Notes under the pieces: model-generated
Database searches by the model: none
Seen by the model: only the letters and a program-made list of their open reading frames with translations
What the model was told of the DNA's origin: nothing
Translations under genes and position numbers: made by a program
Shown: piece after piece, positions 8,195-22,724 of the stretch
How the letters are laid out: each line of letters starts with the position of its first letter
Numbering within the stretch: position 1 is the first letter of the stretch
DNA from: Bacillota bacterium
GTDB taxonomy: Bacteria; Bacillota; Clostridia; Saccharofermentanales; DTU023
Length of the DNA stretch: 58,247 nucleotides
Direction: 5' to 3'
Assembly (NCBI GenBank): GCA_029570375.1
Contig: JAKPXB010000051.1
Coordinates: forward strand, 1 to 58,247

Positions 8195-9115
8195 TTATGA
8201 TTCCAGCGCGGTCATGCCGGTGAACTGCGCGCACGTGCAGCCTACGTCATGCGCGATCCCGACCAGCGTTTCCATGCGCTCTTTTGTCATCAGCGGCGTC
8301 TCGGCGAAAGGCCACGTCCGGCCGAGACGCTTGTACTTATCTCTGCCGAGGTTGTTGAAAGCGAGCAGCTCCCAGCGGTCGGCCCGGCCCGCGATGAGGC
8401 GGGCAAGCGCCCGTATATTGTCTTCACGGTCTGTCGCGCCCGGGATGACCGGCGTACGGATCCAGAGAGTGAGGCCGAGCGCTTTTCTTCTGTCGGCGAT
8501 GTATTCGAAATTGGCGAGGATCCGGCTGTTGCCGACGCCGGTCCAGCGGCGGTGGCGGTCGCTGTCGGCGATCTTCAGGTCGTAGAGGACGATATCTGTC
8601 CACGGAAGGACGTGTTCAAAATCCTCCTGCCGGCAGTACCCGCAGGTGTCAACCGCCGTACCGATCCCGTGTTCTTTCAGCATCCGCAGGAGTTCTGCGG
8701 CTTCTTCCGCCAGCGCCATGATTTCTCCCCCCGAGAGGGTGATGCCGCCGTCTTCGCCGAAATAGGCCCGGTCTTTGATCAGTTCCCCGAAGAGGTCGGA
8801 GACAGCGCGCTCCTCCCCCCTCTGTTCGAGCGCGCGCGCCGGACAGGCGCCGGTACAGAGAAGGCAGCGGTCACAGGTGCTCCGGTCGATGGCAAGACCC
8901 TCGCTGCCGAATGCGAGCGCTCCCGCCGGGCAGACCTTTATGCAGGTCCGGCAGCCGATGCAGCGCTCTCCCAGCCATTCGATCTCGGGGAAAGGGGCCA
9001 TGCTCTCCGGGTTGTGGCACCAGGCGCAGCGGAGCGGACAGCCCTTCGCGAACAGGGTGGTGCGAAGTCCGGGCCCGTCTTCCGTCGACATGCGCTGGAT
9101 GTTCAGTATCCGCAT
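8195..9115 (-). CDS. Glycyl radical enzyme activase (radical SAM)
   Basis: A 306-residue radical-SAM enzyme that installs the glycyl radical on the partner enzyme encoded directly upstream. The radical-SAM cluster motif is the C-x3-C-x2-C of GCPLRCAWCHNPE near the N terminus (about residues 26-36). It is followed by an eight-cysteine, two [4Fe-4S] ferredoxin-like insert (CIGCRTCIKVCPAG and CDRCLLCTGACPAR), typical of activases of the dehydratase/decarboxylase subclasses but absent from the pyruvate formate-lyase activase. TLSGGE (SAM-binding region) follows. ATG 9115 has an AAGGGA ribosome binding site. The gap to the GRE stop is about 100 bases, so the two are probably co-transcribed. Confidence 0.93.
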   Translation of the reverse strand: MRILNIQRMSTEDGPGLRTTLFAKGCPLRCAWCHNPESMAPFPEIEWLGERCIGCRTCIKVCPAGALAFGSEGLAIDRSTCDRCLLCTGACPARALEQRGEERAVSDLFGELIKDRAYFGEDGGITLSGGEIMALAEEAAELLRMLKEHGIGTAVDTCGYCRQEDFEHVLPWTDIVLYDLKIADSDRHRRWTGVGNSRILANFEYIADRRKALGLTLWIRTPVIPGATDREDNIRALARLIAGRADRWELLAFNNLGRDKYKRLGRTWPFAETPLMTKERMETLVGIAHDVGCTCAQFTGMTALES

Positions 9116-9221: not shown

Positions 9222-11708
9222 TCAATACCGCAGGTGGCTCTCGCGGGCGATGATCTCATCCTGGAGCTCGCGTCCGATCGAGGTGAAGTACGCGTTGTAG
9301 CCGGTGACGCGCACGAGCAGATGGCGGTAGTCGCCCGGGTGCGCCTGCGCTTCGCGGAGCACGGCGGGGTCGAGCATATTGATCTGCAGCGCCGTTCCGC
9401 CGTTCTCGGCGTACCCGCGGAGGAACGATTTCAGCTTCGCCTTGTGGCCGGGCGAACGGAGGAGCGATGTGTTGAACGTGATCGTATGGCTCGCGCCGTT
9501 CGGAAGGACGTTGACCGGCGTCCCGTCTTCGCGCCTGCCGCCGAGCGCGGTTCCGACAGAGTTGCTGTTGGCTGTCGGACCGTTCAGATCCGCGCCGTTT
9601 GAGGGGCAGATGGCGTTGGACAGGAACTGGTTTTCATTTCTCCCATTGGCGCTCGCCTTCAGGACGTAGCCGGAGCCGATCCAGTAATTCCACGAGAGCA
9701 TCCCTGGCCGGAATTGTCTGTTCGTCGACTGCGTCTTGTATTTCCAGACCTCATCGGACCAGAGCGCCATGACTTTCTGTGCGAACAGGTCGCTCTCCGT
9801 GTCGTCGCGACCGTACTTCGGCGCGCGGTGGAGCGCTTTCGACTGCAGGATTTCGTAGCCCTTCCAGTCGGCCTTGAGGGCGGCGACGAGCTCTTCCAGC
9901 GTACATTCCTTTTCGTCGTAGACGAGATATTTGACGGCGAGAAGCGAATCGACCGTCGTGGCGAAGGTCACGCCTTCCATTGTCGTGTAAGAGAGTTCCG
10001 CGCCGCCCTGCGTAATGTCGAGGCCTTTCTCCGCGCAGCCTTTGACGAGGATAGAGAGGTAAGGCGTCGGATTATATGCGGCGCGGATGGATTCGCTCAT
10101 CTCGTATGTTTCGACCATCTTACGGATGATGAACCGCGTCTGTTCCGCGTATGCGTCAAAGAACTTTTCCCACGTGTCGAGTTCCGCGAGCGTTCCCGTG
10201 CGCGGGCCTTCCTGTTTGATTTTGCTTGTTTTTCCCGTCATGGGATCGCGGAAGGGGAGCATATCGCATCCGTTTCCGTACACGAGTTCCATCGCTTTCA
10301 GGAGATTGAGGTTGTTGTCGACCGTGCCGGAGCGGTCGTTCCCGACCATCGTGTTTTCGAGGCAGCCGACAGGCGCGTACTCGAACGCGTTGTCCTCGCG
10401 GATGAGCGAGGAGGCGCCGGAGCGCTCGCCCTGGAGGAGCATCCCCGCGATGGAGCGGTCGTCGAAATTGAGAAGGAACGGCGCGCCCTGGCTCGCGGAG
10501 AGCATGTCGACGACTTTGTCCATCAGGCGGTCGGGGCTGTGTCTGTGCAGGCGTACATTCGGCTTCGGTTCGAGGATCGGACTCATGTCGTCGATCACGT
10601 CGAGGAGGAGGTAGGTCAGCTCATTCGTCATGTCCGCGCCGTCTTTTCCGAGCCCGGAGAGGCAGAACAGCTGTCCGAATCCCGCCGTGATCCCCTGGTT
10701 GCCGCCCACGCGCATCTGCGCGTCGTACGCGGTATTGCAGTGGAACCAGAAACAGCCGAGAATGTCTTTCATCTCGTCTTCGGTCATGCCCTCGTCAACG
10801 GATTTTTTGTAATAATGGTACAGATACTGGTCGAGCCTCCCGAAGGAGACGCCCGGCCCCGGGTATTTCTCGTCCGCCATGATCAGCATGTGCGTGAACC
10901 AGAGAGACTGCACCGCCTGGTAGAAATTCTCCGCGCCGTTCCAGGGGACGACGCGCATGTTGGCCGCCATCTTGAGGAGTTCTTCTTTTCGTCCGGCGTC
11001 TGTCTCCTTCGCCGCCAGCCTCTCGCATGTGTCGGCGTATTTGGCCGCGAGTTCCTTCGGCATGAGGCACGCTGTCATCATGGCGCGGAGGACCCCGCCT
11101 TTGCGTCCGTTTTTTTCTTCGGCGGACAGCGAATCGTAGCGGGCTTCGAGCGCTTCCAGCTCTTTGCGGAAGCCGTGCCGCAGGATCTTCGCGTAGTCGG
11201 GGATGAGATGGCCGCTCGTCGCGCCGCAGTTCCCGTACCCGTGATTGTGGAGGAAGAAAACGGCCTCGCGGGCGCGGGAGACGAGCCTGTTCCGCCTCAT
11301 CTGTTCTTTCCTGTTGAGGCACATCGAGTACTGGACGTTGAACTGCGCGCCGCATAAAAGATCGTGGGGGAGGATTTCCACCGGCAGGTGCCGGGTGACC
11401 ACCTCTTTTGTGAACCAGGCTTTTCGCTCCGGGATGGACTGATCGAAGAAATCATCGGGGATGGCGACTTTCTGTGCGCTCTGCCGACAGGAGGCGACGA
11501 AGGGTTTCAGAAAGGCGTATGTCTCCGGGACAATAAAATACGTGATTTCATCGAACTGGACATCCCACGGTGTACCGTTCGTGTAGGCGCAGTACTCGTT
11601 GTTCCAGCGCCGCGCTGTTCCCTGGAAGTAATAGTCCCGCAGCCATTTCACGCGCGGTGACAGCGAGCCGGGCTTTTTAATGCAATCGGTGTATTTCGGT
11701 TCGGACAT
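9222..11708 (-). CDS. Glycyl radical enzyme, substrate unassigned
   Basis: An 828-residue oxygen-sensitive radical enzyme. The C-terminal glycyl radical loop is RVTGYNAYF with G803, and the active-site cysteine is C449 in GCLE, with a glutamate two residues later (E451). Conserved GRE landmarks include GGAELSY (568-574), DSLLAVKYLVYDE (587-599) and the C-terminal NMLD (777-780). The GCLE motif resembles the arylacetate decarboxylases (4-hydroxyphenylacetate decarboxylase has GCLE, as I recall) more than the GCVEP of the diol, choline and hydroxyproline enzymes, but no small decarboxylase subunit lies nearby. It is not pyruvate formate-lyase, which has two adjacent cysteines. ATG 11708 follows GGGAGG at good spacing. 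Substrate candidates are inferred only: an arylacetate or another small organic acid or diol. Confidence 0.92.
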   Translation of the reverse strand: MSEPKYTDCIKKPGSLSPRVKWLRDYYFQGTARRWNNEYCAYTNGTPWDVQFDEITYFIVPETYAFLKPFVASCRQSAQKVAIPDDFFDQSIPERKAWFTKEVVTRHLPVEILPHDLLCGAQFNVQYSMCLNRKEQMRRNRLVSRAREAVFFLHNHGYGNCGATSGHLIPDYAKILRHGFRKELEALEARYDSLSAEEKNGRKGGVLRAMMTACLMPKELAAKYADTCERLAAKETDAGRKEELLKMAANMRVVPWNGAENFYQAVQSLWFTHMLIMADEKYPGPGVSFGRLDQYLYHYYKKSVDEGMTEDEMKDILGCFWFHCNTAYDAQMRVGGNQGITAGFGQLFCLSGLGKDGADMTNELTYLLLDVIDDMSPILEPKPNVRLHRHSPDRLMDKVVDMLSASQGAPFLLNFDDRSIAGMLLQGERSGASSLIREDNAFEYAPVGCLENTMVGNDRSGTVDNNLNLLKAMELVYGNGCDMLPFRDPMTGKTSKIKQEGPRTGTLAELDTWEKFFDAYAEQTRFIIRKMVETYEMSESIRAAYNPTPYLSILVKGCAEKGLDITQGGAELSYTTMEGVTFATTVDSLLAVKYLVYDEKECTLEELVAALKADWKGYEILQSKALHRAPKYGRDDTESDLFAQKVMALWSDEVWKYKTQSTNRQFRPGMLSWNYWIGSGYVLKASANGRNENQFLSNAICPSNGADLNGPTANSNSVGTALGGRREDGTPVNVLPNGASHTITFNTSLLRSPGHKAKLKSFLRGYAENGGTALQINMLDPAVLREAQAHPGDYRHLLVRVTGYNAYFTSIGRELQDEIIARESHLRY

Positions 11709-13089: not shown

Positions 13090-13746
13090 TCAATCGTCCA
13101 TGAAACTCATCATCAGGTTTGTCAGGTGCTCTTCAAGCGTTATGGTCGCTTCTTCAATGTCCCGAACGCGTATAGCATTGAGAATGCGCTGGTGTTCCTT
13201 CTGGAGCCGCTTCAGATTTTCCGCGTCAGCCAGCTTCGAAACGGTGAACCAATTGCGCATATTGCACTGCTTCCAGAGTCTCTTAAGCACGACATTGCCG
13301 GTCGCGTCGATGATGGACTGATGAAACGCGGCGTCCGATTCGGTGAAATGTATCAGATCAGCCTGTTCAGCGCAGCGATCCATCTCGTGAAGAACCTGCT
13401 GAAGATGATCGGAGAGGTTCGCCAGATCGGTGTCAGACAGAATCTGGATCGCGTCCCGGATGCTCTTGGATTCGAGACAGATGCGCACTTCGTAATTATC
13501 GATGACATCTTTTCTTGACAGCTTTCTTACTCTGGAGCCTTTGAAAGGAATGGTCTCGACCAGGCCGAGCGCCTCAAGATCCCGTATCGCTTCACGCACA
13601 GGACCCTGGGAGACTCCCAGCTCCTTGGCCCAGAATGTCTCGATAATCCGGTCGCCCGGTTTTAACTCCCCGGAAAAAATGGCGTCACGGATTCGATCGC
13701 GGATCTCTTGGCGGAATACCTGTCTGCGCGGTTTATCTGCTGTCAT
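13090..13746 (-). CDS. GntR-family regulator with FCD domain
   Basis: A 218-residue FadR-subfamily regulator. The winged helix spans about residues 8-75 (IRDRIRDAIFSGELKPGDRI, then WAKELGVSQGPVREAIRDLE), and the helical FCD domain (about 85-210) carries the putative metal-ligand positions D...H in FTESDAAFHQSII and a later histidine pair (KEHQRI, EEHL). ATG 13746 follows TGAGGA. It is divergent from the dehydrogenase operon that starts at 14061, with 314 bases between, and is the obvious candidate regulator of that operon, responding to an organic acid ligand. The ligand is unknown. Confidence 0.9.
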   Translation of the reverse strand: MTADKPRRQVFRQEIRDRIRDAIFSGELKPGDRIIETFWAKELGVSQGPVREAIRDLEALGLVETIPFKGSRVRKLSRKDVIDNYEVRICLESKSIRDAIQILSDTDLANLSDHLQQVLHEMDRCAEQADLIHFTESDAAFHQSIIDATGNVVLKRLWKQCNMRNWFTVSKLADAENLKRLQKEHQRILNAIRVRDIEEATITLEEHLTNLMMSFMDD

Positions 13747-14034: not shown

Positions 14035-14060
14035 CGATAACCAGTGACGGAGGTTTTGTG

Positions 14061-15026
14061 ATGATTGACGAAAAAAAAGCGCTGTGGATCTACAAAACGA
14101 TGAAGGAGATCAGAGAATTCGAAGAGACCGCCTGGACACTGTTCACAGAAAACAAACTGAGAGGTTCTGTTCACCTGTATACAGGCCAGGAGGCTGTGGC
14201 GGCAGCCATATGCTCTCAGCTCACCGATGAAGATTATATTACTTCAACACACAGAGGGCACGGCCACTGTATCGCCAAAGGGGCGCGGCTCGATTTCGCT
14301 CTGGCAGAACTGATGGGCAAGGCGACAGGCTACTGCAAAGGCAGAAGCGGTTCCATGCATATCGCGGATTTCAATAAAGGCAATCTGGGAGCGAACGCGA
14401 TAGTCGGCGGCGGCCTCCCTATTGCAACCGGCGCCGCGCTGGCGCAGAAAATGCAGAAAAAAAATCACGTGACAGTTTGTTTCTTCGGTGACGGCGCGTC
14501 AAATCAGGGGACGTTCCATGAGTCGATTAATCTGGCATCCGTATGGAAGCTGCCGGTGATATACGTCTGTGAAAACAATGAGTTTGGCATGACCGTCCCC
14601 GTCTCGCAGTCCACGTCGGTCAGGAATATTTCCGATCGGGCAAAGGGATACGGAATTCCCGGCGAGACAGTAGACGGCAATGATGTCGAGGCCGTCTTCG
14701 ACGCCTTCGCGCGCGCGAAAGAGAGGGCGCTGCGAGGCGACGGCCCGACGCTGATTGAGTGCAAGACATACCGTTGGAGAGGCCACTGGACAGGTGATCC
14801 GGAAACCTACAGAGACCGTGAAGTCACTGAAGAGTGGAGAGAGAAGAGGGATCCCATCAGCCTATTCAGAACCTGTCTGAAGGCGCGGAATCTCGTGTCC
14901 GATGCCGCGCTCGACGCGGTCGACACGGCTGTGGCGGAAGAAATGCGAAAGGCTGTTGAATTTGCCGAGAGCAGTCCTGAGCCCGATGCGGCCCATGTAA
15001 TGGACGATGTGTTTTACGAAGGTTAG
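14061..15026 (+). CDS. 2-oxoacid/acetoin dehydrogenase E1 alpha subunit
   Basis: The thiamine-diphosphate-dependent E1 alpha subunit (321 residues) of a 2-oxoacid dehydrogenase complex, forming a heterotetramer with the next gene product. The TPP motif runs from GDG (143-145) to the ENN at 171-173, and the GRSGSMH segment (94-100) is typical. Sequence style fits the AcoA/PdhA group (acetoin or pyruvate) rather than branched-chain enzymes. Start at ATG 14061, 7 bases after GGAGG; the GTG three bases earlier is too close. First gene of an operon continuing with E1beta, E2 and E3. Confidence 0.9.
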   Translation: MIDEKKALWIYKTMKEIREFEETAWTLFTENKLRGSVHLYTGQEAVAAAICSQLTDEDYITSTHRGHGHCIAKGARLDFALAELMGKATGYCKGRSGSMHIADFNKGNLGANAIVGGGLPIATGAALAQKMQKKNHVTVCFFGDGASNQGTFHESINLASVWKLPVIYVCENNEFGMTVPVSQSTSVRNISDRAKGYGIPGETVDGNDVEAVFDAFARAKERALRGDGPTLIECKTYRWRGHWTGDPETYRDREVTEEWREKRDPISLFRTCLKARNLVSDAALDAVDTAVAEEMRKAVEFAESSPEPDAAHVMDDVFYEG

Positions 15027-15040
15027 GGAGGGTAATGGAC

Positions 15041-16021
15041 ATGGCTGTAATATCATACGCTCAGGCGATACGCAAGGTAATAGCGGAGGAAATGCGGCGT
15101 GACGAGCGCGTCTTTCTCATGGGTGAAGATGTCGAGAAACTCGGCGGGGTTTTCGGCACGAGCCGCGACCTGTTCAAGGAATTCGGAACAGACCGCATCA
15201 GGAATACGCCGATCTCGGAATCGGCGATTGTGGGAGCGGGACTCGGCGCGGCATGCGCGGGCATGCGCCCCATTGCGGAGCTGATGTATTGGGATTTTGC
15301 TTTTGTATGCGCTGATCAGATTTTTAATCAGGTTTGTAAAACGCGCTACGTCTTCGGCGGCAACGCCATCATTCCTCTGGTGATCAGAGGACAGCAGGGG
15401 ACGGGCCGAGGGAATGCCGCCACGCACTCGCAGAGCGTTGAGAGTATTTTCATGCATATTCCGGGCGTCAAAGTCGCTTGCCCGGCGACGCCCGCGGACG
15501 CGGCGGGGCTTCTTCGCACCGCTATCCGCGACGACAATCCGGTCTGTTTTTTCGAGCACAAGGCTCTGTATATCACCAAGGGTGAAGTGCCCGACGACCC
15601 CGAGTTTTCGATTCCGTTCGGAGAAGCGGTTATCAGGCGCGAAGGATCGGATGTGACGATTGTCGCAAACCTTCTCTATGTGAGCCGCGCTCTCGAGGCC
15701 GCGGATGAGCTCGCGAAAGACGGGATATCCGCCGAAGTGATCGATCCGCGGACGCTCGTGCCGTTTGATTATGAAACAGTCGAAGAAAGCGTCAGAAAGA
15801 CAGGCAGGCTTGTCGTCGTCCACGAAGCCCATCAGGTGAACGGCTGGGGAGCGCAGGTGATTACCGAAGTCGGGAAGAGAGCTTTCCGCTATCTCGACGC
15901 CGCGCCCATTCATCTGGGAGCGAAGAGCTGTCCGCTGCCCTTCAACCTGGCGCTTGAACAAGCCGTGATCCCGAGCGTGAAAGATATCGTCGATGCCTGT
16001 CACGCCGTCTCATACCGTTGA
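15041..16021 (+). CDS. 2-oxoacid/acetoin dehydrogenase E1 beta subunit
   Basis: The E1 beta subunit (326 residues) that completes the TPP site and transfers the acyl group to the E2 lipoyl arm. The N terminus ISYAQAIRKVIAEEM, the GTSRDLFKEFG...TPISE segment and HSQSVESIF are typical of this subunit, and the C-terminal transketolase domain (DPRTLVPFDYETV) is complete. ATG 15041 lies 8 bases after GGAGGG and is preferred to ATG 15035, which is only 2 bases from it. It follows the alpha gene by 14 bases and precedes E2 by 21 bases. Confidence 0.9.
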   Translation: MAVISYAQAIRKVIAEEMRRDERVFLMGEDVEKLGGVFGTSRDLFKEFGTDRIRNTPISESAIVGAGLGAACAGMRPIAELMYWDFAFVCADQIFNQVCKTRYVFGGNAIIPLVIRGQQGTGRGNAATHSQSVESIFMHIPGVKVACPATPADAAGLLRTAIRDDNPVCFFEHKALYITKGEVPDDPEFSIPFGEAVIRREGSDVTIVANLLYVSRALEAADELAKDGISAEVIDPRTLVPFDYETVEESVRKTGRLVVVHEAHQVNGWGAQVITEVGKRAFRYLDAAPIHLGAKSCPLPFNLALEQAVIPSVKDIVDACHAVSYR

Positions 16022-16042: not shown

Positions 16043-17404
16043 ATGGCGCAGATCATAATTATGCCCAAGCAGGGGCTCATGATGGAGGAAGGTCATATTA
16101 CGGAGTGGCTTGTCAAAGAAGGCGGGCGCACAGAAGAAGGTTCACCGCTGTTCGAAATGGAAACGGATAAGCTGACGATCACGATGGATTCCACGGCTAC
16201 CGGTACATTGCTCAAGATCCTGGAGCCTGCCGGAAATATCGTTCCCATTACGAAACCAATCGCGGTCGTCGGGGAGCCGGGAGAGGACATCGCGGCGCTT
16301 CTCTCTTCTCTGTCATCATCCGGGCCGCGCGAGGATGAGGAAAAGGCTGCCGGATCATCGAACCAGGAAACTCCTGCTTTCACTGCCCCGCAGGCCGAGT
16401 CAGGTGAGGCGCAGCCGGGGAGAGTTTTTATTTCGCCGCGCGCGAAACGCCGTGCGGAGGAAGAGGGGCTGGATTACACAAAAATCAGCGGTTCCGGACC
16501 GGAGGGACTCATTATTGACCGCGATATTGACCTGTCCCTGGCGCGTAAAATACCCGTCACCCCGCTGGCTTCCAGAGAAGCCGCCATGAGAGGAATCGAC
16601 CTCGCGGCCGTCTCAGGATCCGGACCTGCCGGTAAAATAACGGTGGGCGATCTCTGTCAGGCCGGGGAAAAGGAACCGGCAGCGGCCGCTTTTGCGCCTG
16701 AGGTTTCGCGAGCGCGCGGTACGCGGAAGGAACCGATGAGCATGATGCGCCGGATGATCTGCAAAAACATGCTCGAAAGCAAAGACAACAACGCGCAGGC
16801 TTTTCATAGAATCTCCGTCGATATGACAGAGGTTACCACCCTCAGAAACCTGTACAAAAAACTGAATAAGAGTATTTCGTTCAACGATATTATCATCCGG
16901 ACCTGTGCCAGGGTGCTGCAGGAATTCCCGATCGTCAACGCGAGCGTCGAGGGAGATCATATTATTTATCACGATTACGTCCATATCGGCACAGCGGTCG
17001 CCGTACCGAACGGCCTGATTGTTCCCGTGATTAAAGACGCCGATTGTCTCAGCCTTGAGAAGATCGCGGCGGTATCATCTGCGCTTGTCGACAAAGCCCG
17101 GTCAGGGAAGCTGGCGGAAGAGGAATACCACGGCGGGACTTTCACGGTGACGTCTCTCGGCATGTTTGATATCGATGATTTTGTGGCCATCATAAACCCG
17201 CCGGAATCAGCCATTTTATCTGTCGGTAAAATCGCGAAACAACCAGTCGTTGAGACAAATGAAAAGGGGGAGGACGTGATCGTCATCAGGCCTGTATGCA
17301 CATTCTGCCTGAGCTACGATCACCGCATTATTGACGGCGCTGTCAGCGCGCAATTCCTGCGCCGGCTGAAGCTCTACCTGCAGTCGCCCGCATTACTCAT
17401 CTGA
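16043..17404 (+). CDS. Dihydrolipoamide acyltransferase E2
   Basis: The E2 core of the complex, 453 residues, moving the acyl group from lipoyl lysine to CoA. Domains in order: one lipoyl domain (about 1-78) with K43 in ETDKLT, a flexible Ala/Glu/Ser-rich linker, then two E3/E1-binding domains in tandem (about 128-165, FISPRAKRRAEEEGLDYTKI, and about 171-207, VTPLASREAAMRGIDLAAV), a second linker, and the trimer-forming catalytic domain (about 228-453) with H427xxxD431G. Most E2 proteins have a single binding domain; two in tandem is uncommon. AAGGAGG precedes the ATG. The acyl specificity (acetyl from pyruvate or acetoin) is inferred. Confidence 0.9.
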   Translation: MAQIIIMPKQGLMMEEGHITEWLVKEGGRTEEGSPLFEMETDKLTITMDSTATGTLLKILEPAGNIVPITKPIAVVGEPGEDIAALLSSLSSSGPREDEEKAAGSSNQETPAFTAPQAESGEAQPGRVFISPRAKRRAEEEGLDYTKISGSGPEGLIIDRDIDLSLARKIPVTPLASREAAMRGIDLAAVSGSGPAGKITVGDLCQAGEKEPAAAAFAPEVSRARGTRKEPMSMMRRMICKNMLESKDNNAQAFHRISVDMTEVTTLRNLYKKLNKSISFNDIIIRTCARVLQEFPIVNASVEGDHIIYHDYVHIGTAVAVPNGLIVPVIKDADCLSLEKIAAVSSALVDKARSGKLAEEEYHGGTFTVTSLGMFDIDDFVAIINPPESAILSVGKIAKQPVVETNEKGEDVIVIRPVCTFCLSYDHRIIDGAVSAQFLRRLKLYLQSPALLI

Positions 17405-17417
17405 GGAGGAAAAAGCG

Positions 17418-18815
17418 ATGCTTAAGTATGACGCGGTCGTTATCGGCGCAGGTCCGGGCGGGTACGAATGCGCGATCCGTCTCGCCCAGAACGGAAAGAA
17501 GACGGCGCTCGTGGAAGAGTGCGAGCTCGGCGGGACATGTCTCAATCGCGGCTGTATTCCGACCAAAGCGCTCCTGCATTCCGCCGATGTGTATGACAAG
17601 GCCAGAAATGCAGACGCGTGCGGTGTCTTCGCTGACAAGGTCACCTTTGATTACGCGAAGATCATCCAGCGCAAGAACGCAATCACAAAAAAACTGAGAA
17701 ATGGCGTGGCTTTTCTCGAGAAAAGCCACGGCGTTGAGGTCATACAGGCCCGCGCCGTTCTGTCGGGAACGCGGCGCGTCAGCCTGTCCAACGGCGAGGA
17801 GCTGGAAGCGGCGCATATTGTTCTCGCGACGGGATCGCTGCCGTCGGCCCTGCCTATTCCGGGAACGGATCTTCCCGGTGTCGTCGATTCCACCGCTCTA
17901 TTAGATATAACAACCTGTCCTCAGCACATCATTATCATTGGAGGCGGTGTGATCGGTGTGGAATTTGCGACCTTTTACAGCCGTCTCGGCGTGAAAGTTA
18001 CCATACTGGAGATGCTGGATCGTATTCTTGAGCCATTCGACAAAGAGCTCGCCCGTCTTGTCTCGGGCAAGCTCGAAGAACAGGGTGTGAGCGTCGTGGT
18101 GAATGCCCGCGTCGAATCCATCGCGGAGGGATTGACGGTCCGCTATACCGACAGAAAAAAGGGGGCGGGCGGCAGCGTCCGGGGAGACCTCGTCCTTGTG
18201 GCCGGCGGAAGGCAGGCGAACAGCCGGGGCATGGGCTTTGAGCAGGCCGGTCTCCGCATGACGCGGGGAGGATTTGTCGAGACGGACGGACTTTGCCGTA
18301 CGAATATACCGAATATTTACGCGATCGGAGACCTAAACGGGAAGATGCTGCTCGCGCACGCGGCGTCCGCGCAGGGACTGATGGTGGCCGATCTGATTGC
18401 CGGAATTCCCCGCCGGGCGATCCATGGAAACCGCATTCCCTCCTGTGTGTACTGCCACCCGGAGCTGGCAATGGTCGGGATGACAGAGGAGAAAGCGCGC
18501 GCCGCGGGAAGGGAGATCGGCACCGGCGCTTTCAATATCGCCGGGAACGGGAAAGCGCTGGCCATCGGTGAGAACGAAGGCATGATCAAGATTGTCTTCG
18601 ATAAGACGAACGGCGAGATCCTCGGCTGTCATATATGGGGGCCGCACGCGACGGATCTTGTGGCGGAAATAGCCGCCGTGATGGAGTGTGAAGGCACGGT
18701 GGATGAGCTTGGAACCACGGTTCATCCTCATCCGACCGTAAGTGAGATTATTCTCGAAGCGGCTCACGACTGCCGCGGGAAATCGGCGAATGCGCCTGCC
18801 CAGAAGCCGCGCTGA
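17418..18815 (+). CDS. lpdA: Dihydrolipoamide dehydrogenase E3
   Basis: The FAD flavoprotein that reoxidises dihydrolipoamide with NAD+, 465 residues. It has the N-terminal FAD motif GAGPGG (10-15), redox-active disulfide C41/C46 in GGTCLNRGCIPTK, the NAD-binding IIGGGVIGVE and the C-terminal active-site HPHPTVSE. The gene follows E2 by 13 bases with AGGAGGAAAAAGCG before the ATG, so the complete complex E1alpha-E1beta-E2-E3 is encoded in order. It has no N-terminal lipoyl domain. Confidence 0.95.
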   Translation: MLKYDAVVIGAGPGGYECAIRLAQNGKKTALVEECELGGTCLNRGCIPTKALLHSADVYDKARNADACGVFADKVTFDYAKIIQRKNAITKKLRNGVAFLEKSHGVEVIQARAVLSGTRRVSLSNGEELEAAHIVLATGSLPSALPIPGTDLPGVVDSTALLDITTCPQHIIIIGGGVIGVEFATFYSRLGVKVTILEMLDRILEPFDKELARLVSGKLEEQGVSVVVNARVESIAEGLTVRYTDRKKGAGGSVRGDLVLVAGGRQANSRGMGFEQAGLRMTRGGFVETDGLCRTNIPNIYAIGDLNGKMLLAHAASAQGLMVADLIAGIPRRAIHGNRIPSCVYCHPELAMVGMTEEKARAAGREIGTGAFNIAGNGKALAIGENEGMIKIVFDKTNGEILGCHIWGPHATDLVAEIAAVMECEGTVDELGTTVHPHPTVSEIILEAAHDCRGKSANAPAQKPR

Positions 18816-18883: not shown

Positions 18884-19909
18884 ATGATAAAAGTCGGAGT
18901 AGCAGGATTTGGTGTCATCGGACAGCGGCTCGTAGACGGCGTCCTTCTGCAAGAGGATATGGAACTTGTCGGGGTGGCGGATTTAGCTCCCACTCTGGCC
19001 ATCCGGGCGCTCAAAGAGAAAGGGATGCCTGTGGATTTATACCTTGTGGAGGGGGCTGACGAGGAAGCGTTTAAGAAGCTGGGGATTCCTGTCGCGGGGA
19101 CTTTCAGCGAGCTGGTCGATAAAGTCGACATCATGCTTGACGCCTCGCCCGGCGGCGTCGGCAAGAAAAACAAAGAACTGTACATGTCGAAAAACCGCAA
19201 AGCGATTTTCCAGGGCGGTGAAAAAAACGACATCGCGGATTGTTTCTTTCACGGCTATGCCAATTATGAGAAGGGGCTCGGGAAAGATTATCTGAAGCTG
19301 ACATCGTGCAATACAACGGGCCTGATCCGCGCTGTCGACTGCCTGGACCGGGCGTTCGGCGTCGAACGTGTGGCGATCACGATTATCCGCCGCGTCGCTG
19401 ATCCCGGCGACTATCACCGAGGCCTGACAAACGCTCTGCAGATCGATAAAGCGCCCAGCCATCAGGCTGTCGACCTCATGACAATCATGCCCCATATCGA
19501 AGCGACCGGTATTCTCGTTCACACGCCTGTGACGCACGGCCATATCATTACCGTTGTCGTTCACGGGAAGAAAAAGATAAGTGCGGAGGGCGCGCTTCGC
19601 GCCTTTGAGTCGCACGACCGCATCCGCCTCGTCAGCATCGACGAGGGATTCCTCGGCAACGCGTCGCTGTTCCGCTACGCGCGTGCGCTCGGGAACCCGC
19701 GCGGCGACATGTATGAGATCGCCATCTGGCGCGACAGCATCGTCGAAACAGGAGACGACCTCATGTTCGCGATCAATATCCCGCAGGAGTCCGTTTCCAT
19801 CCCGGAGACGATTGACGCGGTGCGCGCGGCGCTGGAACTCCAGCCGGATTCGGCGAGCGCCACACAGCTGACGAACAAATACCTGGGAATGGCGAGATGG
19901 AAAAAATGA
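18884..19909 (+). CDS. Archaeal-type (type II) GAPDH homologue
   Basis: A 341-residue NAD(P)-dependent phosphorylating aldehyde dehydrogenase of the type II class, normally found in archaea and unrelated in sequence detail to the bacterial GapA. The Rossmann motif GVAGFGVIGQR (5-15) and the catalytic cysteine C142 in TSCNTTGL are clear, and IIRRVADP matches the archaeal RR-ADP segment. Compared with archaeal enzymes as I recall them, the PSHHGPD segment reads PSHQAVD and the catalytic-domain TTLMH strand reads PVTHGH, so substrate contacts may differ. AGGAGAAAG precedes ATG 18884. It overlaps the PGK homologue by 13 bases, so they act together: aldehyde to acyl phosphate to ATP. Glyceraldehyde-3-phosphate is the default substrate. 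Confidence 0.85.
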   Translation: MIKVGVAGFGVIGQRLVDGVLLQEDMELVGVADLAPTLAIRALKEKGMPVDLYLVEGADEEAFKKLGIPVAGTFSELVDKVDIMLDASPGGVGKKNKELYMSKNRKAIFQGGEKNDIADCFFHGYANYEKGLGKDYLKLTSCNTTGLIRAVDCLDRAFGVERVAITIIRRVADPGDYHRGLTNALQIDKAPSHQAVDLMTIMPHIEATGILVHTPVTHGHIITVVVHGKKKISAEGALRAFESHDRIRLVSIDEGFLGNASLFRYARALGNPRGDMYEIAIWRDSIVETGDDLMFAINIPQESVSIPETIDAVRAALELQPDSASATQLTNKYLGMARWKK

Positions 19910-21135
19910 TGAACTCTCTGGATGCTTTTGATTACTCCGATGCCCTCGTGCTGCTGAGGCTGGATATCAATTGCCCGATCGACCGCGAAACGGGCGCGAT
20001 CGTCAACGATGAGCGGATTGTCCGTTCGCTGCCGACGATCAGGCATTTGCTCAGCCAGAACGCGAAGATTGCCATCCTCGCGCATCAGGGGGATACGCTT
20101 GACTACCATAATCTCATCCCTCTCGAAAAGCATGCGGTTCGACTCGCTGAACGGCTCGGTCACCCCGTCCGCTACATCGATGATGTGTGCGGGCCGGCGG
20201 CTGTCGGGCTTATCCGCGCCATGAAAAGCGGGGATGTCGTGCTCCTGGGCAATCTCCGGTATCTCTGTGAAGAAGTGTCGACCTTCGAGAACGATGTCAA
20301 ACTGACGCCGGAGGCGATGGAAAAGACCTGGCTGGTGAGGACGCTTGCCCCTCTTTTCGACTTTTATGTCAACGAGGCTTTTTCAGCCGCGCACAGAAAT
20401 TGTCCGTCGCAGGTCGCTTTCCAGCGCTGTCTGCCGTCTGCCGCGGGGAGGGTTTTTTTCGAAGAATACGAGGCGCTCAACAAGCTGCTGCATAAGCCCA
20501 TCCGGCCGGCGACATTCATACTGGGCGGAGCGAAGATATCCGACGCCTTCGGCATGCTCGAAGGCGTCCTGAAGAATGGAACGGCTGACCGCATTCTGAC
20601 AGGCGGTGTCACCGGCAATATTTTCCTTCTCGCAGCCGGATTTTCACTCGGCGCGAAAACAGAACAGTGGATCAGAGATCGATCGCTTGAACGCTTTATC
20701 GACCCTGCCCGTCGCTATCTGGAGGATTATCGGGATCGCGTCTATTATCCGTTTGACCTCGCGTATGCCGACGGTGACAGGCGCGTCGAGATCAGCCGGG
20801 ACGCGCTGCCCGCGGAAGACGCACTGCTGGCCGACATAGGGACAAAAACCATTCACTTGTATGAGGATTTGATCGAGTCAGCCGGGAGCGTCTTTGTCAA
20901 TGGCCCCATGGGGATGTATGAAGACAGCCGCTTTGAAAAAGGGACAAAAGCGATCTGGGGAAAAATAGCACAATCGAGCGCGTACAGTGTTCTGGGCGGC
21001 GGCGATTCCGTGACAGCTGGTCAGCGCTTTGGAATGGACGGGATCGACTATGTCTGTACGGCAGGCGGCGCCATGGTTCGCTTTATGGCGGGGAAAACGC
21101 TCCCGCTGATCGACGCCATGGTGCAAAAAAGATGA
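19897..21135 (+). CDS. Archaeal-type phosphoglycerate kinase homologue
   Basis: A 412-residue kinase transferring phosphate from an acyl phosphate to ADP. Archaeal-like landmarks are RLDINCPID (near 24-32, bacterial RVDFNVP), NLRYLCEE, VNEAFSAAHRN, FILGGAKISD, NGPMGMYE and the C-terminal GGGDSVTA nucleotide segment. The HxxR motif that binds the substrate phosphate in known PGKs (HLGR, HQSR or HQGR) reads HQGD here, in LAHQGDTLDY, so a key arginine is missing or moved. The protein may therefore act on another acyl phosphate or be impaired; the second is less likely because the rest is intact and the operon is compact. Start ATG 19897 overlaps the GAPDH homologue; ATG 19906 is an alternative. 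Confidence 0.85.
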   Translation: MEKMMNSLDAFDYSDALVLLRLDINCPIDRETGAIVNDERIVRSLPTIRHLLSQNAKIAILAHQGDTLDYHNLIPLEKHAVRLAERLGHPVRYIDDVCGPAAVGLIRAMKSGDVVLLGNLRYLCEEVSTFENDVKLTPEAMEKTWLVRTLAPLFDFYVNEAFSAAHRNCPSQVAFQRCLPSAAGRVFFEEYEALNKLLHKPIRPATFILGGAKISDAFGMLEGVLKNGTADRILTGGVTGNIFLLAAGFSLGAKTEQWIRDRSLERFIDPARRYLEDYRDRVYYPFDLAYADGDRRVEISRDALPAEDALLADIGTKTIHLYEDLIESAGSVFVNGPMGMYEDSRFEKGTKAIWGKIAQSSAYSVLGGGDSVTAGQRFGMDGIDYVCTAGGAMVRFMAGKTLPLIDAMVQKR

Positions 21136-21210: not shown

Positions 21211-22104
21211 ATGAATGATGTGAAAGAAAAACTAGTCGACCTCCTGGCACAGTTTACGAGGCTGTCGTCTATCCGGCTGCCCGATGACGTGCTGCGGAAA
21301 CTTCACGAATTATCCGGGAGCGAAACATCTGAACGGGCGCGTTTTTTCTACGATGCGATGCTGGCTGATCTCGATATGGCCAGCTCTCTCATGAGGCCCT
21401 GCTGTCAGGATACCGGTATTATCCAATACTTTGTTGAAGCCGGGAGCAAGTCTCCCTATCTCGACCTGTTGGAGGACGCGCTGCGGCAGGCGGTGGTTTT
21501 AGCGACAGACAGAACGCCCCTGCGGCACAACTGTGTGGAAGTGTTCGACGAGAAAAATACAGGAGATAATACAGGGACGAGAATTCCCTGGATTGACTGG
21601 CAGGTGATCCCGGACAATCAGGATCTCTCGATATACATTTATCTTGCCGGAGGCGGCTGCAGCCTCCCGGGCGCCTCGAAAGTTCTGATGCCGCTCGAAG
21701 GCTACGAGGGAGTGCTGCGGTTTGTGTTTGACCAGGTGACCTCGTACGGCATCAACGCGTGTCCGCCGTTGCTCCTGGGAATCGGCATCGCGGGATCGGC
21801 CGAAGTCGCGGCGAAACTGTCGAAGAAAGCGCTTCTGCGGCCGATCGGCTCGGCGAACGGGAACGAGCGCGGCCACGCGCTCGAGGTGAAAATCGAAGAG
21901 GCGGTCAACGCGATCGGCATCGGCCCCGGCGGAACCGGCGGCGCGAAATCGCTGCTCGGCGTTCATGTCGAGCAGGCGGGCCGTCATCCGGCCACACTCG
22001 CGGTCGGCCTCTCAACCGCCTGTTGGGCTCACCGGCGCGCTCACATCATCATCCATCCTGATCTGAGTTGGGAAATGCCTACACATCAAGGAGCGCAGTT
22101 ATGA
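21211..22104 (+). CDS. ttdA: L(+)-tartrate dehydratase alpha subunit
   Basis: The iron-sulfur catalytic subunit of a class I fumarase-superfamily hydro-lyase, 297 residues. It follows the E. coli TtdA sequence closely from memory: RPCCQDTGIIQYFV (about 62-75), TPLRHNCVEVFDEKNTGDNTG, AGGGCSLPGASKVLMP, NACPPLLLGIGIA and TACWAHRRAHI; the cysteines in the first, fourth and fifth of these are the expected [4Fe-4S] ligands. The reaction is L-tartrate to oxaloacetate plus water; a fumarase or another 2-hydroxyacid dehydratase remains possible. AAAGGAG precedes ATG 21211. The stop overlaps the beta-subunit start by four bases (ATGA). Confidence 0.88.
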   Translation: MNDVKEKLVDLLAQFTRLSSIRLPDDVLRKLHELSGSETSERARFFYDAMLADLDMASSLMRPCCQDTGIIQYFVEAGSKSPYLDLLEDALRQAVVLATDRTPLRHNCVEVFDEKNTGDNTGTRIPWIDWQVIPDNQDLSIYIYLAGGGCSLPGASKVLMPLEGYEGVLRFVFDQVTSYGINACPPLLLGIGIAGSAEVAAKLSKKALLRPIGSANGNERGHALEVKIEEAVNAIGIGPGGTGGAKSLLGVHVEQAGRHPATLAVGLSTACWAHRRAHIIIHPDLSWEMPTHQGAQL

Positions 22105-22724
22105 GTATTCATCACCTGAAAACACCGATAAAAGAAGAAGAAATCCGCAGGATCAGGACAGGTGACCTCATTTTCCTTTCGGGAACGCTGGTGACGGCGC
22201 GCGATGACGTGCATCTGCGGCTTGTGAAACAGCAGGATTCTCTTCCGATCGATCTTCGCGACGGCGCTATTTTCCACGCCGGTCCCATCATGGCCGCGTC
22301 GAAGGACCGGCCGGGGCGCTATGAAGTGATCTCGATCGGACCGACCACAAGTATGCGGATGGAGCGGTATGAAAAAGAGTTTATCGAGCAGACGGGCCTC
22401 CGCCTCATCGTCGGAAAAGGCGGCATGGGACGCCGGACGGAAGAAGCCTGCGCCGCCCACGGATGTCTGCACGCTGTTTTCCCGGGAGGATGTGCGGTAC
22501 TCGCCGCCTCTCTGGTTCGCGAAGTCCGTGAAGTCCACTGGCTGGAGCTGGGTATGCCGGAAGCGATGTGGGTGATGGAAGTGGAGAACTTCGGACCATT
22601 GCTCGTGTCGATCGACGCGCAGGGAAATAATCTGTTTGAGCAGCAAAAGGCTATTTACAACGAGAAAAAAGAAGCGGAGCTGCGGGCGCTCAATGCTTAC
22701 ATCGGAGAAGCGTTCCGAATCTGA
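22101..22724 (+). CDS. ttdB: L(+)-tartrate dehydratase beta subunit
   Basis: The C-terminal-type subunit (207 residues) of the same hydro-lyase. Clear TtdB landmarks are LKTPIKEEEIRRIRTGD, GTLVTARDDVHLR, FHAGPI, SIGPTTSMRMERYEKEF and VGKGGMG, followed by FPGGCAVLAAS and VHWLELGMPEAMWV, in the order of the E. coli protein. Start ATG 22101 is preceded by AAGGAGCG and overlaps the ttdA stop, so the two are translationally coupled. It appears to be the last gene of the operon that starts at 14061; a new promoter follows at 22833. Confidence 0.88.
   Translation: MSIHHLKTPIKEEEIRRIRTGDLIFLSGTLVTARDDVHLRLVKQQDSLPIDLRDGAIFHAGPIMAASKDRPGRYEVISIGPTTSMRMERYEKEFIEQTGLRLIVGKGGMGRRTEEACAAHGCLHAVFPGGCAVLAASLVREVREVHWLELGMPEAMWVMEVENFGPLLVSIDAQGNNLFEQQKAIYNEKKEAELRALNAYIGEAFRI

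Follow-up and report, generated by a model that had tools for sequence, protein, structure and literature searches.

Phosphoglycerate kinase (PGK) is usually regarded as a single-function enzyme. In the classical myo-inositol pathway (IolG-E-D-B-C-J-A), 2-deoxy-5-keto-D-gluconate (DKG) is the product of IolB, reached after the steps of IolG, IolE, IolD and IolB, and IolC is the DKG kinase. In the transketolase route of sulfoquinovose breakdown, a split transketolase cleaves an anionic fructose 6-phosphate analogue whose charged group is a sulfonate, as against the carboxylate proposed here; we know of no PGK-like kinase in that route. During L-carnitine breakdown, malic semialdehyde, made via carnitine monooxygenase, is converted to malate, and the abstract mentions neither an acyl phosphate nor an ATP gain for this conversion (PMC11353897). 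Within PGK, Arg65 together with Arg122 and Arg170 touches the 3-phosphate, and a bridge to Asp218 is formed in the closed form (review, PMC7729029).

We compared with these systems an operon in a 58,247-nucleotide stretch of DNA from a Bacillota bacterium (the whole stretch is hereafter the window). Its gene order is E1 alpha-E1 beta-E2-E3-GAPDH-II-PGKL-TtdA-TtdB, followed by glycerol genes, where GAPDH-II denotes a type II GAPDH homologue and PGKL a PGK-like kinase:

13090..13746, minus strand: divergent GntR/FCD regulator (Pfam FCD, 6e-22; GntR, 8.6e-15)
14058..15026, plus strand: E1 alpha of a 2-oxoacid/acetoin-dehydrogenase-like complex (TIGR03182, 377 bits, under the cut-off of 393.85)
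15035..16021, plus strand: E1 beta of the same type of complex (NF006667, a subfamily model, 354.3; cut-off 321)
16043..17404, plus strand: E2, lipoyl acyltransferase (model match and comparison with relatives)
17418..18815, plus strand: E3, dihydrolipoyl dehydrogenase (TIGR01350, 535.7; cut-off 408.8)
18884..19909, plus strand: type II (archaeal-type) GAPDH homologue, proposed phosphorylating C4-semialdehyde dehydrogenase (TIGR01546, 300.6 bits, cut-off 232.9; NF003251, 394.8, cut-off 185)
19897..21135, plus strand: PGKL, PGK-like kinase of 412 aa, proposed to pass phosphate to ADP from the acyl phosphate of a C4 dicarboxylate (Pfam PGK, 339.5 bits, cut-off 27, E = 3.2e-101, whole length covered)
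19897..19909, plus strand: 13-nt overlap between the start of PGKL (19897) and the end of the GAPDH-II stop codon (19909)
20083..20094, plus strand: HQGD codons (residues 63 to 66), with the Asp66 codon (20092..20094) at the HxxR position by alignment
21211..22104, plus strand: TtdA, alpha subunit of an L(+)-tartrate dehydratase/fumarase-type hydro-lyase (NF006084, 433.9; cut-off 365)
22068..22724, plus strand: TtdB, beta subunit of the same hydro-lyase type (NF006082, 300.2; cut-off 264); the true start probably lies about 33 nt inside the listed TTG start, as the NF006082 match begins at residue 15

The PGKL open reading frame is intact and full length, and both its sequence and its fold place the product in the PGK superfamily. 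Its best sequence match in the PDB is the archaeal PGK of Pyrococcus horikoshii (2cun; E = 2.2e-80), which is also the closest structure to its AlphaFold model (mean pLDDT 92; TM 0.88). PGKL and 2cun are alike in fold, length and catalytic residues, with 37% of residues identical in the structural comparison. Unlike 2cun, PGKL has Asp66 in place of Lys or Arg, always adjoins GAPDH-II, belongs to a catabolic operon and is extra to a canonical PGK. More specifically, the loop reads AHQGDTLDYHNL, and when it is aligned to two PGKs of known structure, from Pyrococcus (2cun) and Geobacillus stearothermophilus (1php), D66 falls where HxxR has its arginine; the loop contains neither Arg nor Lys, so that the possibility of a neighboring arginine occupying the same site was not borne out. 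The basic residue typical of canonical PGKs at this position is thus lacking, while the remaining 3-phosphoglycerate (3PG) and nucleotide residues are kept (equivalents of D23, N25, R38, H62, R122 and R170, the GGAK lysine and the GGG/GGGDS loops). These results confirm the initial annotation as to the HQGD loop, the intact remaining segments and the overlap with the GAPDH gene.

The same annotation held that HxxR is common to all known bacterial and archaeal PGKs, which is not so. The solved Pyrococcus enzyme itself has HQGK, with Lys at the arginine position, and by alignment the canonical PGKs of genomes in which the HQGD or HQG[G/S] family is present as well (26 rows, two of them from one genome) have R in 18, K in 4 and D in 4. 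The four Asp-bearing sequences are from spirochaetes (L192, L193, L194 and L195) and share the loop HLGDP; they show that the textbook motif has natural exceptions and are probably glycolytic. In the complete genome of Breznakiella homolactica, the only PGK match other than the HLGD protein is a member of that family, and hence the HLGD enzyme is probably the glycolytic one. Among the PDB matches there also appears a crystallised R65Q mutant of yeast PGK (1qpg). Because canonical spirochaete PGKs carry Asp as well, Asp at this site is not diagnostic of a new substrate, and we rejected the loss of Arg as sufficient proof of one, given the spirochaete HLGD and Pyrococcus HQGK loops. The loss of Arg65 is consistent with a less charged substrate, without proving one.

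A scan of one genome collection yielded 73 related loci, and together with further genomes 103 PGK sequences were aligned. HQGD was present in 68/68 proteins of one clade (clade A), whereas the sister clade (clade B) carried HQG[G/S] in 12/12 (HQGG in 7, HQGS in 5); the remaining 23, canonical or archaeal, had R in 22 and K in 1. Since Asp is invariant throughout clade A, the motif reflects neither chance nor decay. A maximum-likelihood tree built by a quick method, with SH-aLRT as its only support measure, recovered clade A (100), clade B (97) and their sister relationship (97), and placed both with archaeal PGKs, away from bacterial ones (100). This archaeal affinity is tentative because the branches are long and only three archaeal sequences were included; one truncated clade A member carried the label "canonical" in the tree owing to labelling by motif pattern. 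The window PGKL is the deepest member of clade A and has a long branch. Clades A and B probably share a substrate class, as transketolase and E1-E2-E3 each accompany members of both clades, and the feature common to them would therefore be the loss of Arg rather than the gain of Asp. The family spans Clostridia, Spirochaetes, Chloroflexi and one Synergistes genome. It is present in about 10 of 291 sampled genomes of the window genome's class, the window's own included, with membership called by match score. Each of the 29 genomes tested had two or more PGK matches, as a rule a canonical one plus a member of the PGKL family.

GAPDH-II exceeds the curated cut-off for archaeal type II GAPDH (TIGR01546) and has the catalytic cysteine motif of that family, SCNTTG, which is kept in 81/81 family sequences. 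In contrast, comparison of these 81 sequences with four aligned archaeal GAPDHs revealed that archaeal PSHH is replaced by P[SNT]HQ (PSHQ in the window partner) and archaeal RGPIN by RGLTN in 73/81; a further difference from the archaeal enzymes is that the host bacteria also carry a canonical GAPDH. The PSHQ and RGLTN positions may contact the distal group of the substrate.

The genes flanking the pair were grouped by sequence clustering and named with curated models. Where the pair was flanked by 7 kb or more to either side (41 loci), GAPDH-II was present in 41, a LarA-family gene (malate racemase type) in 34, split transketolase in 26 and malic enzyme in 14, together with IolD in 26, IolE in 25 and IolB in 21. 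About 26 of the 41 share IolG, IolE, IolD and IolB with the classical myo-inositol pathway; unlike that pathway, they have transketolase, GAPDH-II, PGKL and malate racemase instead of an above-cut-off IolC. Indeed, IolC scored above its cut-off in 0/27 pair-bearing genomes, two of them complete, as compared with 3/14 control genomes; these counts cover above-cut-off matches, and weaker matches occur. The LarAH6/Mar2 malate racemase has been characterised by experiment (PMC7583248, PMC11770544), including assays of racemase activity on malate for Mar2 (PMC7583248). The LarAH6 cut-off (500 bits) was passed beside the pair in 6/9 genomes; the representative in L084 fell under it, though LarAH6 was its best model, and one copy matched the solved structure of Mar2 (6d6z) at 1e-125. 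Other arrangements combine the pair with an E1-E2-E3 complex, racemase and malic enzyme (L121, L122 and L047; in L121 all lie together), with a GABA-type transaminase, malic enzyme and racemase (L046), or with IolN and transketolase (L123, L124 and L098). At 13 of the 41 loci, neither transketolase nor E1 was found near the pair, which counts against the route proposed below.

Several further genes recur near the pair. Molybdenum-hydroxylase-like genes (xanthine dehydrogenase type, by eye) lie at 15455-19001 in L121 and 16179-19939 in L047, two of the loci that have the E1-E2-E3 complex, and might be a clue to what compound is degraded there. A conserved protein (MKKRVGVVHTFLYSVEDLKK...), about 220 aa long, adjoins the pair in L065 (8271-8942), L061 (2-664) and L158 (8945-9604); it occurs in loci without inositol genes, and the L065 copy has no NCBIfam match. 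Aldehyde:ferredoxin-oxidoreductase-like genes are found in several loci (e.g., L055, 1056-2942; L065, 5218-7092), and their products might oxidise an aldehyde by-product.

We propose, with a probability of roughly 0.6, that GAPDH-II and PGKL are a dedicated substrate-level-phosphorylation pair for a C4 hydroxy-aldehyde acid with a distal carboxylate, the likeliest being (R)-malic semialdehyde. The reactions and substrates of this scheme are those that we infer from the sequences, their conservation and phylogeny, the gene context and the lack of an above-cut-off IolC. By established chemistry, DKG read from C6 would be a D-threo ketose, the configuration used by transketolase. In most of the relatives, the split transketolase, a TPP enzyme, could therefore take a two-carbon unit off DKG and leave OHC-CHOH-CH2-COOH, i.e., (R)-malic semialdehyde, which would correspond to D-glyceraldehyde 3-phosphate with CH2COO- replacing CH2OPO3. 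GAPDH-II would convert this semialdehyde to malyl phosphate, and PGKL would then convert malyl phosphate and ADP to D-malate and ATP. A product of this kind would explain the malate racemase beside the pair, and the L-malate formed from D-malate by the LarA-type racemase would explain the malic enzyme nearby, which would use it. Other supplies of the semialdehyde, or of its hydroxylated analogue, can be envisaged: the E1-E2-E3 complex accompanied by racemase and malic enzyme; the GABA-type transaminase, for which 4-amino-3-hydroxybutyrate is a conceivable substrate; and the combination of IolN and transketolase, from which tartaric semialdehyde could arise. Taken together, the loci may represent a seemingly undescribed, widespread anaerobic branch of inositol and sugar-acid metabolism, in which TPP-dependent cleavage would give malic (or tartaric) semialdehyde, then malyl (or tartryl) phosphate, and finally the diacid and ATP through an archaeal-related GAPDH/PGK pair; we consider this broader scheme rather probable. 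In the open-access literature that was searched, no inositol route with transketolase, malic semialdehyde or malate racemase was found described, and the novelty of the branch is accordingly provisional.

In the window, the TPP-dependent step would be carried out by E1-E2-E3, and the product of the pair would be handled by the tartrate-dehydratase/fumarase-type enzyme. The complex falls short of an assignment as pyruvate dehydrogenase: E1 alpha misses the equivalog cut-off, and the one cut-off that E1 beta clears is that of a subfamily model. Its E1 subunits resemble those beside the pair in relatives, with identities of 63 to 66% for E1 alpha (L047, L121) and 65 to 75% for E1 beta (L047, L121, L122). 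The divergent GntR/FCD gene is a probable regulator of the operon, and L047 and L065 have a similar regulator close to the pair. PGKL is not the only PGK of the window genome, as a canonical PGK-TIM fusion is encoded on contig C39, and a canonical GAPDH is located elsewhere. Neither IolD nor LarAH6 nor an above-cut-off IolN was found in this assembly (95.6% complete), and we therefore claim no inositol source for the window; these absences and the long branch of its PGKL count against the proposed route. The genome also encodes a split transketolase away from the pair (contig C40; L170, 7172-9045), about 40 to 44% identical to the pair-associated ones; it adjoins a class III aminotransferase-like gene, and inspection of its surroundings indicated no substrate. 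Elsewhere in the window, 8195-9115 and 9222-11708 on the minus strand together encode a glycyl-radical enzyme and its adjoining activating enzyme; the glycyl-radical enzyme is far under every named subfamily cut-off, the best equivalog being hydroxyproline dehydratase (362.6 versus 1100).

For the window itself, it is possible, though rather unlikely, that tartaric semialdehyde (L-threuronate) is the substrate of the pair, such that E1-E2-E3 would cleave a 5-keto-gluconate-type ketose, the pair would yield L-tartrate and ATP, and TtdAB would dehydrate the L-tartrate to oxaloacetate. The adjacent TtdA and TtdB both exceed the L(+)-tartrate dehydratase cut-offs, and their scores point either to tartrate or to a hydro-lyase role on malate, tartrate being at least as good a fit; the window PGKL is also divergent, and the loci combining IolN, transketolase and the pair suggest a related tartrate-type route. 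However, TtdAB was found beside no other copy of the pair, and the 63 to 75% identity of the window E1 subunits to those accompanied by malate racemase and malic enzyme points to malic semialdehyde. We consider it improbable that PGKL is an ordinary PGK isozyme that acts on 1,3-bisphosphoglycerate with its GAPDH partner and is co-regulated with sugar-acid catabolism. Such a role would accord with the retention of every other 3PG-site residue and with the dispensability of R65 in nature, but the genome already has a canonical PGK and GAPDH, GAPDH-II is altered in parallel near PSHH and RGPIN, and neither the repeated presence of malate racemase, malic enzyme and split transketolase nor the absence of IolC would be explained.

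That the pair oxidises succinate semialdehyde, or the malonate semialdehyde formed in the classical inositol pathway, seems very improbable to us. The inositol genes adjoining the pair in many loci and the GABA-type transaminase of L046 might be read in this way, but malate racemase, malic enzyme and transketolase would have no explanation, and, lacking IolC, these genomes do not seem to reach malonate semialdehyde by the classical pathway. The long branch of the window PGKL is what one would expect of a decaying PGK duplicate, to which we assign next to no probability: the motif does not vary among proteins drawn from several phyla, the other key residues are conserved, and decay was rejected on the 68/68 conservation of HQGD. 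The view of the initial annotation that the substrate has changed, as opposed to the gene decaying, is well supported at the family level, by the motif, the separate canonical PGK, the dedicated GAPDH-II and the malate/inositol neighborhood; its derivation from a single residue does not stand. A new substrate is argued for by gene context and not by the residue, because a missing Arg alone proves little, and in our preferred reading, that of a dedicated C4-semialdehyde pair, the new substrate is probably an acyl phosphate that carries no phosphate at its distal end.

If true, this reading would give the PGK superfamily an enzyme with a non-glycolytic substrate and metabolism a new acyl phosphate, and it would mean that the ATP-yielding GAPDH/PGK pair of glycolysis can be re-targeted. 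It would also explain the possible use of inositol by many anaerobes without IolC, and would correct the automatic annotation of the pair as glycolytic GAPDH and PGK.
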